From positions 434,001-498,000 of the forward strand of contig MU270050.1 of the NCBI GenBank assembly GCA_021432635.1: DNA of 64,000 bases, given 5' to 3'. A program made the translations under genes and the position numbers. Each line of letters begins with the position of its first letter. The first letter of the stretch is position 1. Under the pieces are notes generated by a model. It made no database searches and was not told where the DNA came from. It saw only the letters and a list, made by a program, of their open reading frames with translations. The DNA is from Thozetella sp. PMI_491. Lineage: Eukaryota > Ascomycota > Sordariomycetes > Chaetosphaeriales > Chaetosphaeriaceae. Below are positions 57,589-60,725 of this stretch, one piece after another.

Positions 57589-57708
57589 GCCCGGTTAGCT
57601 CAATGTATGTTCGATTGATCCGCTCGGCGTTTACAATAATACTAACTCCACAACAGCGGTAGAGCGTGAGACTCTTAATCTCAAGGTTGCGGGTACCCCG
57701 CATCGGGC
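57589..57708 (+). tRNA. tRNA-Lys(CTT)-like sequence, interrupted in the D-loop, probably non-functional
   Basis: The 5' end GCCCGGT pairs with ATCGGGC at 57702-57708 as an acceptor stem. After GCTCAAT a 52-nt insert (57605-57656) splits the D-loop; then the sequence resumes as CGGTAGAGCGTGAGACTCTT, with anticodon CTT at 57674-57676 flanked by a five-pair stem. The T-arm is GCGGGT joined directly to ACCCCGC, so about four bases including the GGTTCGA core of the B box are missing. The A box is also split by the insert. Pol III transcription and normal folding are therefore unlikely, and I treat this as a tRNA-derived relic inside a repeat. The insert begins GTATGT, carries TACTAAC at 57640-57646 and ends ACAG. 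Confidence 0.6.
57605..57656 (+). other. spliceosomal-intron-like insert inside the tRNA-like sequence
   Basis: 52 nt with donor GTATGT, branch-site consensus TACTAAC ending 10 nt before the 3' end, and acceptor ACAG. Exact removal restores a continuous tRNA-Lys D-arm (GCTCAAT joined to CGGTAGAGC). Known nuclear tRNA introns lie next to the anticodon and are cut by an endonuclease, so position and signals are both unlike a tRNA intron. Confidence 0.65.
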
Positions 57709-58209
57709 TCAATTCCTGATGCACCTGCTCAGCAGGTATTTCGAACTAAATTTTTTTAAATATTAAATTTTTTTTTAGTTTTATCCTCCTTATTATAGAC
57801 TCGGCCCGAATCCCGGTTTTTTTTAATCATAACGATAAAACTTAGGGGGAATACATAATAGAGTGGATAGGAATGTTGATAATTAGGTATGCAGTTAGAT
57901 TATAATACATAAATTATGCTATATATTTAATAGACTGGGTGTCGTGGCGATTGATCTAATATATATCATAGCCTGGGGCTATGCCTGCCAGCGCTGGTCC
58001 GCTGGCCACCGCTAGATTGTTGCACAGCTGGTTGCACAAGCCACTGCCAGCCAGCTGCTGTATATCTATCCAGCTGGATCTGTAGCTTCCGTTTGCCTTC
58101 TTTCACTCCTTAGCTTACTATTTTGTGCGTTCAATATGCACGGATACAGATCCTGACCCTCGCTGCGCCGTCGCTGTGACAATATACACGATGCTCGGTA
58201 GTCTTTCGA

Positions 58210-60066: not shown

Positions 60067-60725
60067 ACGCATAAGATGCTAAGCCAAAGAGTGGAAAGAA
60101 GGCAAACGGAAGCTACAGATCCAGCTGGATGGATATACGGCTCGTGGGCCAGCTGGCTGGCAGTTGGTTGTGCAACCAGCTGTATAACGATCCAGCCGTG
60201 GCCAGCGGACTAGCGCTCGCCGGCATGGCCTGGGGCCATGCCAACGGCCATCGTAGAGAAGCGCTCAACTGAGCTAGCACCAGCACCCACCCATTTTGCC
60301 AAGTTGGCAATGCCAACAGTGCTGAGGTGGTCAACTTTCCAATTCACTATACATAAAACACCATAAACCGTACCCAATCGAGATAATCTAGCCTCATATA
60401 GACGGTACAAGGCGGAGACAGGACTTGCCGCGTAAAAGTAGGCACTCTAGAGGATTAAATTAGGCATAGTCGCCTCGTCGGACCCCTGTTCGCCTATTTT
60501 TATTTTTAATTACAGAACTAAACCCCAAAATCTCGGAATCCAAACCTATTGAAACCAAAAAATAAAAAAAGACATGTTCGAAATACCTGCTGAGCAGGTG
60601 CATCAGGAATTGAGCCCCGCCCGCAACCTTGAGATTAAGAGTCTCACGCTCTACCGCTACAGTGGAGTTAGTAATTTTTCACGCCTAGCGGATCAGTCCA
60701 ACGTACATTGAGCTAACCCGGCGAA
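60000..60725 (-). repeat. right arm of the large inverted repeat
   Basis: The reverse complement repeats the left-arm order: the tRNA-Lys-like unit (60722-60614), TCAATTCCTGATGCACCTG with the AGCAGG hairpin, an A/T-rich unalignable stretch, then the block with CAGCTGGTTGCACAA, CTGCCAGCCAGCTG and CCAGCTGGATCTGTAGCTTC at about 60240-60087, continuing into GCGTTCAATAC. The two arms enclose roughly 1.8 kb. Confidence 0.65.
60614..60722 (-). tRNA. second tRNA-Lys(CTT)-like sequence with D-loop insert, non-functional
   Basis: Read on the minus strand: GCCGGGTTAGCTCAAT, a 50-nt insert (plus 60657-60706), then CGGTAGAGCGTGAGACTCTT with the same CTT anticodon arm. The 3' half is more damaged than in the left copy, because GCGGG runs straight into CGGGGC and the T-arm and 3' acceptor strand are largely lost. 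The insert starts GTACGT, contains TACTAAC (plus 60666-60672) and ends TGTAG. Its sequence differs from the left insert at many positions while donor, branch and acceptor signals are kept. Confidence 0.55.

Follow-up and report, generated by a model that had tools for sequence, protein, structure and literature searches.

Split tRNA-Lys(CTT) gene and its sister copy

The window, i.e. the whole 64,000-nt stretch of Thozetella sp. PMI_491 DNA analysed here (contig MU270050.1, positions 434,001 to 498,000), encodes a HET-domain protein, a kind generally indicative of filamentous ascomycetes, and carries, on the plus strand, a tRNA-Lys(CTT) gene that is split in its D-loop. Exon 1 (57589..57604, GCCCGGTTAGCTCAAT) runs from the 5' strand of the acceptor stem to D-loop position 16, and this exact 16-mer occurs at five more places in the genome. 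It is followed by a 52-nt GT-AG insert of spliceosomal type (57605..57656), with the donor GTATGT at 57605-57610, a branch-like TACTAAC at 57640-57646 and the acceptor ACAG ending at 57656. Exon 2 (57657..57709) starts with CGGTAGAGCGTGAGACTCTTAATCTCAAGG and keeps both strands of the T-stem (57689-57693 and 57697-57701). Beyond it, on the same strand, lie a trailer (57700..57737) with two predicted hairpins, one formed by GCATCGGG and CCTGATGC and overlapping the tRNA 3' end, the other variable in sequence, and a run of seven T residues (57751..57757), which is likely a Pol III terminator.

The first-pass annotation had described a tRNA-Lys whose D-loop is interrupted by this donor, branch and acceptor series, with flanks derived from a tRNA. 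Both points were borne out: the context is that of a true tRNA-Lys, and excision of 57605-57656 yields an ARAGORN call of tRNA-Lys(ctt). With the insert in place, ARAGORN reports no tRNA in the raw window and Rfam returns nothing at gathering scores. The proposed extent of the tRNA body, 57589..57708, holds at its start, and its end was corrected to about 57709. The junction of the insert is set by two paralogues, C67a and C67b, in which the D-loop is continuous. The window has one match to GTATGT..CTAAC..CAG, where shuffles predict 0.18, and a looser intron grammar gives four matches, the insert among them, against a shuffle mean of 2.55. Because the loose grammar stays near the shuffle level, the intron motif alone is weak evidence, and it is the exact restoration of a tRNA that counts.

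The T-loop of the window copy consists of TAC only (57694-57696) and its B box is gone; this copy is thus probably non-functional, a dead and decayed member of the Lys-CTT family. A sister copy lies on the minus strand. It comprises exon 1 (60707..60722, GCCGGGTTAGCTCAAT), a 50-nt GT-AG insert of the form GTACGT..TACTAAC..GTAG (60657..60706), related to the first and identical to it at 40 of 50 aligned positions, and an exon 2 (60612..60656) that has lost more of its T-arm than the first copy and from which ARAGORN recovers no tRNA after excision. The two copies belong to an inverted duplication (57589-58166 on the plus strand, 60722-60031 on the minus strand), the homology of which begins precisely at the tRNA 5' end, ends past the T-run and restarts as a second block, 57977-58166 with 60230-60031, that is 83% identical.

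Lysine tRNA genes across the genome

The genome assembly (72.3 Mb, 157 contigs) was examined with searches that score best candidates only. The Lys 5' half, with at most one mismatch, was found at eight places, seven of them Lys-CTT copies and one (C86) a false match that was rejected as not being a tRNA. A GT-AG insert is present in all seven Lys-CTT copies, in five of them at one D-loop position and in two (C67a and C67b) in the variable loop. Each group is unbroken at the site interrupted in the other, which sets the junctions independently of any sequence motif. Whether the donor, branch and acceptor would recur in other copies had been named as the deciding test by the first-pass annotation; the splice signals are indeed kept among the Lys copies, and the interior of the insert has diverged.

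A search with the Lys 3' half, allowing up to three mismatches, gave ten places. Five belong to Lys genes whose T-arm is intact (C12, C16, C21, C67a and C67b), each with an insert; the others are three Arg genes, an unassigned tRNA-like sequence on C40 and a place on C70 that gave no tRNA. C21 is the sole Lys-TTT gene found. In C12, a pair in the anticodon stem has changed from G-C to A-T (TGAGA/TCTCA to TAAGA/TCTTA). Three loci are decayed, namely both window copies and C58. Of the Lys(CTT) genes, which the first-pass annotation proposed to compare with and without the insert, all seven copies have it; no insert-free Lys gene was obtained in these genome searches of best candidates, in an assembly that may be incomplete. 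A scan of viral contigs for the split Lys gene found nothing. As no Lys gene free of an insert was found, the Lys genes may depend on spliceosomal removal.

Trailer of the Lys-CTT genes

Across the tRNA end, six of the seven Lys-CTT copies have in common the sequence GGGCTCAATTCC-GATGC, in which one base varies. The trailer copies are those of the window (57700-57757) and of L001, L002, L005, L006 and L007. In five copies that were folded, the second predicted hairpin varies in sequence and keeps its pairing, and in six the T-run lies 37-50 nt past the tRNA. The trailer can also pair with the 3' strand of the acceptor stem. Energy folding of four intact genes with the insert removed gave the trailer hairpin 0.62-0.99 and the acceptor stem 0.01-0.27; with the insert present, the trailer hairpin wins in three of the four genes (0.84-0.99), C12 giving 0.13. 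As this predicted hairpin prevails both with and without the insert, a role as a check on splicing is just a guess.

Interrupted tRNA genes of other types

In total, the genome contains at least 22 such inserts in at least 21 tRNA loci of nine amino-acid types (Lys, Leu, Ser, Arg, Ile, Gln, Gly, Pro and Glu), a count obtained with searches that inserts in the T-arm would escape. The Rfam tRNA search of the genome gave 51 matches, including the split genes for Lys-TTT (C21), Ser-TGA (C9) and Leu-TAA (C33). Patterns that require both CTAAC and a B box, with each GT..AG segment of the matches then excised and ARAGORN run, led to Leu-AAG (C91), Arg-TCG (C119), Ile-AAT (C6), Gln-CTG (C23b, with two inserts), Gly-TCC (C74) and Arg-CCT (C103). 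These patterns were no commoner on both strands than in the reversed control (8 vs 13, 10 vs 23, 19 vs 27 and 15 vs 16 matches) and are thus not enriched in themselves; the fit to a tRNA alone separates the true ones. A pattern with the branch motif CTGAC gave 19 matches vs 15 in the reversed control, of which only Leu-TAG C4 and C40 were tRNA-like as judged from the letters.

A search that required only a T-run behind a B box gave 126 matches in the genome, both strands, vs 28 in the reversed control. Examination of 20 short regions from it added Pro-TGG (C2), two Glu-CTC genes (C36) and Gln-CTG (C23a), and Leu-TAG (C4) was added from this search together with a CTAAC-pattern search. The Lys-CTT genes, having their T-run further away, fall outside it. 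By hand count, the matches listed cover at least 57 distinct places, at least 49 of which are tRNA or tRNA-like; eight were put aside as non-tRNA, four after scanning and four as judged from the letters. When three tRNA-like places without a settled reading and one cut by a contig end are left out, 45 settled places remain among the matches listed, and 11 of these have an insert.

Genes are named here by the anticodon loop as read by hand, which differs from the ARAGORN label for Lys C12 (Leu-caa), Arg C119 (tct), Ile C6 (Thr-agt), Gln C23a (Pyl-cta) and Leu C4 (taa); L102 was read by hand as Leu-TAG after several weak readings. Three further places, L096 (C40:146660), L114 (C17:1011467) and L115 (C23:77677), resemble the 3' part of a tRNA, with B box and T-run present; a matching 5' half could not be located, and excision of one or two inserts, for L115 also on the minus strand, yielded no tRNA. 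The 3' end on C40 carries a CCCTAGTA-CA-TACTAGGG hairpin. L103 (C2:1116191) and L104 (C19:118163) form a similar pair with a B box and a T-run and no tRNA, and are perhaps copies of a repeat. Additionally, L039 (C28:627828) is an A/T-rich, Ser-ACT-like tRNA in an 816-kb contig that gives an organellar impression.

Anatomy of the inserts and integrity of the spliced genes

All 22 inserts start with GT, end with AG and have G at position +5, and their lengths range from 48 to 61 nt. For nine of them the junctions are set by paralogues (the seven Lys-CTT copies, Leu C91 and the D-loop insert of Gln C23b); for the other 13, excision was tried with GT..AG ends only. CTAAC or CTAAT stands at a branch-like distance in 17/22 inserts, and in 11/16 of those whose locus was found without using the motif; the two Glu inserts had initially come up by way of a filter for branch motifs, and the CTAAT of C67b and C36c was read from the sequence where the automatic pick took another site. 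The other five inserts have TTAAC, CTGAC, CTCAC, CTTAC and CTAGC. Identity that allows a junction to slide, the only measure of repeats taken, amounts to 0-3 extra bases. The insertion sites comprise the D-loop, the 3' side of the D-arm, the anticodon stem and loop and the variable loop, and are never at 37/38. In the Leu-TAA gene L046 (C33:54420-54563), the GT-AG insert separates position 34 of the anticodon from position 35.

Once the inserts are excised, ARAGORN recognises a tRNA in 19 of the 21 loci and misses the sister copy and C58. Full pairing of the acceptor stem (7/7) and the T-stem (5/5) is seen in 17/21 loci, or 18/21 when the start of Gln C23b is moved by one base, and the loci that fail are both window copies and C58. 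Read by hand, the anticodon stems of Gly C74 and Leu C33 contain a single mismatch each. A T-run of five or more lies within 60 nt past the tRNA end in 20/21 loci, C58 having none; in all 14 loci other than Lys-CTT it begins 0-19 nt after the tRNA. Furthermore, ARAGORN places a separate canonical intron at 37/38 in 13/21 loci, from which the inserts described here differ in position and in signals.

Several of these genes can be compared with close relatives. The exons of Leu-AAG C91 equal those of two insert-free paralogues on C31, the only difference being in the 37/38 intron. Gln C23b, with two inserts, shares its exons with the tandem neighbour C23a, which has a single insert and no break in its D-loop. 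In these paralogues with identical exons, the insertion was clean. Insert-free genes of the interrupted types were also found for Leu-AAG (L116, L117), Glu-CTC (L053), Arg-CCT (L121), Ile-AAT (L042) and Gly-TCC (L032) by ARAGORN, and for Gln-CTG (L112, L113) by hand. Also, none of the four U6 copies found in the genome is interrupted, hence not every Pol III gene is affected.

Discussion

The anatomy of the inserts, their recurrence among tRNA genes and the existence of paralogues with and without them are observed in the genome. Judged by their sequences, messenger-type introns in nuclear tRNA genes are a real and recurrent feature. Transcription, splicing and the route of gain we infer, and we hold it to be probable that nuclear tRNA genes of this fungus acquired U2-type spliceosomal introns which are removed from Pol III pre-tRNAs. 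In such a pathway, RNA polymerase III would make the pre-tRNA, the spliceosome would remove a GT-AG intron of 48-61 nt from the D-arm, the anticodon arm or the variable loop, and the ordinary tRNA endonuclease and ligase would remove the separate 37/38 intron where one is present.

A different view is that the inserts are real but dead, i.e. intron-like or introner-like elements silenced these tRNA genes, and functional tRNAs come from other genes. It would accommodate the decay of both window copies and of C58, and the inserts in the D-loop split the A box, so that Pol III transcription should be weakened. Several types also have insert-free genes, which means that the interrupted copies there could be dispensable or silent; Lys has no such escape in what was searched, every Lys gene found having an insert. 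The acceptor and T stems are, however, intact in 18/21 loci, with the one start corrected, the splice signals of the Lys copies persist although the interior has diverged, and the single insert that was searched is single-copy. We therefore regard silenced genes as an improbable account of the inserts.

We give very little credence to the possibility that the inserts are non-canonical tRNA introns of the kind that the tRNA splicing endonuclease removes in Cyanidioschyzon or archaea. Introns at 20/21, 25/26, 29/30 and other non-canonical positions are described there (PMC4090602), and the tRNA introns of the bulge-helix-bulge type in archaea and Cyanidioschyzon, as well as those of nucleomorphs, resemble the present inserts, by the accounts in PMC4090602 and PMC3978253, in lying outside 37/38, sometimes several per gene and beside a canonical intron. 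The 4-bp central helix of the bulge-helix-bulge, formed by exon 1 and the 3' end of the intron, is nevertheless absent here: 0/21 inserts have all four pairs at any sliding position (0.3 expected by chance; Leu C4 left out), and the inserts have the signals of lariat introns instead. To our knowledge, GT-G5-CTAAY-AG signals are not expected of tRNA introns cut by the endonuclease.

Scarcely any more plausible is an ordinary spliceosomal intron in a SINE-like, tRNA-derived repeat or in a Pol II RNA with a tRNA-like part, the latter suggested by the first-pass annotation: the trailer with predicted hairpins in six of the seven Lys-CTT copies found and the homology of the two window copies from exactly the tRNA 5' end would fit it, but there are 14 more tRNA loci with inserts of this kind, each followed at 0-19 nt by a T-run, and the T-run after the tRNA end in 20/21 loci goes against a Pol II transcript.

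Within our preferred reading, removal by the spliceosome, the introns would have been gained by clean insertion, an excised intron being reverse spliced into a tRNA, with subsequent reverse transcription and recombination. The first-pass annotation had considered an introner-like insertion. Introners, named in PMC12730881, are like the present inserts in that ready-made introns are inserted; as multi-copy elements they did not hold up here, since the 61-nt insert of C12, the sole one searched genome-wide, matched only itself (the search skips very common words). Clean insertion and the lack of copies elsewhere, for the one insert tested, lend weak support to reverse splicing as a better fit than a multi-copy introner.

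Ectopic spliceosomal introns in RNAs other than messengers are already known. The U6 snRNA genes of fission yeast have an mRNA-type intron, for which PMC10484740 gives reverse splicing as the supposed origin. This is likewise a spliceosomal intron in a Pol III transcript, but there the host is one snRNA, itself part of the spliceosome, whereas here many tRNA genes and positions are involved and the four U6 copies are insert-free. Among ascomycetes, the rDNA of lichen fungi has ectopic spliceosomal introns, which yeast removed from a Pol I transcript according to PMC8527467; the host RNA is rRNA there and tRNA here. Non-canonical tRNA introns of eukaryotes are presented as supposedly rare in PMC4090602, and eukaryotic tRNA genes as limited to one intron in PMC8450103. 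The first-pass annotation had called spliceosomal signals in a tRNA context new to its author, and we too found no report of spliceosomal introns in tRNA genes in one collection of open-licence papers, which excludes most subscription papers and leaves priority uncertain; within it, we met no precedent for this class of genes.

Should the inserts be spliced, an entire class of Pol III transcripts would be a substrate of the spliceosome, the supply of tRNAs would be coupled to the splicing of messengers, and genes of this kind would go unnoticed by tRNA finders. With the paralogue pairs that differ by one clean insert (Leu C91/C31 and Gln C23b/C23a), the gain of introns can be tested directly in an RNA that has no reading frame and whose structure gives a strict readout. 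On balance, we lean towards the spliceosome being an essential tRNA-processing enzyme here: the entire Lys-tRNA pool, and a share of several other tRNA pools, would pass through messenger-type splicing of Pol III transcripts, one Gln tRNA twice, in addition to endonuclease splicing, and introns would still be gained in tRNA genes by reverse splicing. The messenger-splicing machinery may thus be needed for making the tRNAs of Thozetella sp. PMI_491.
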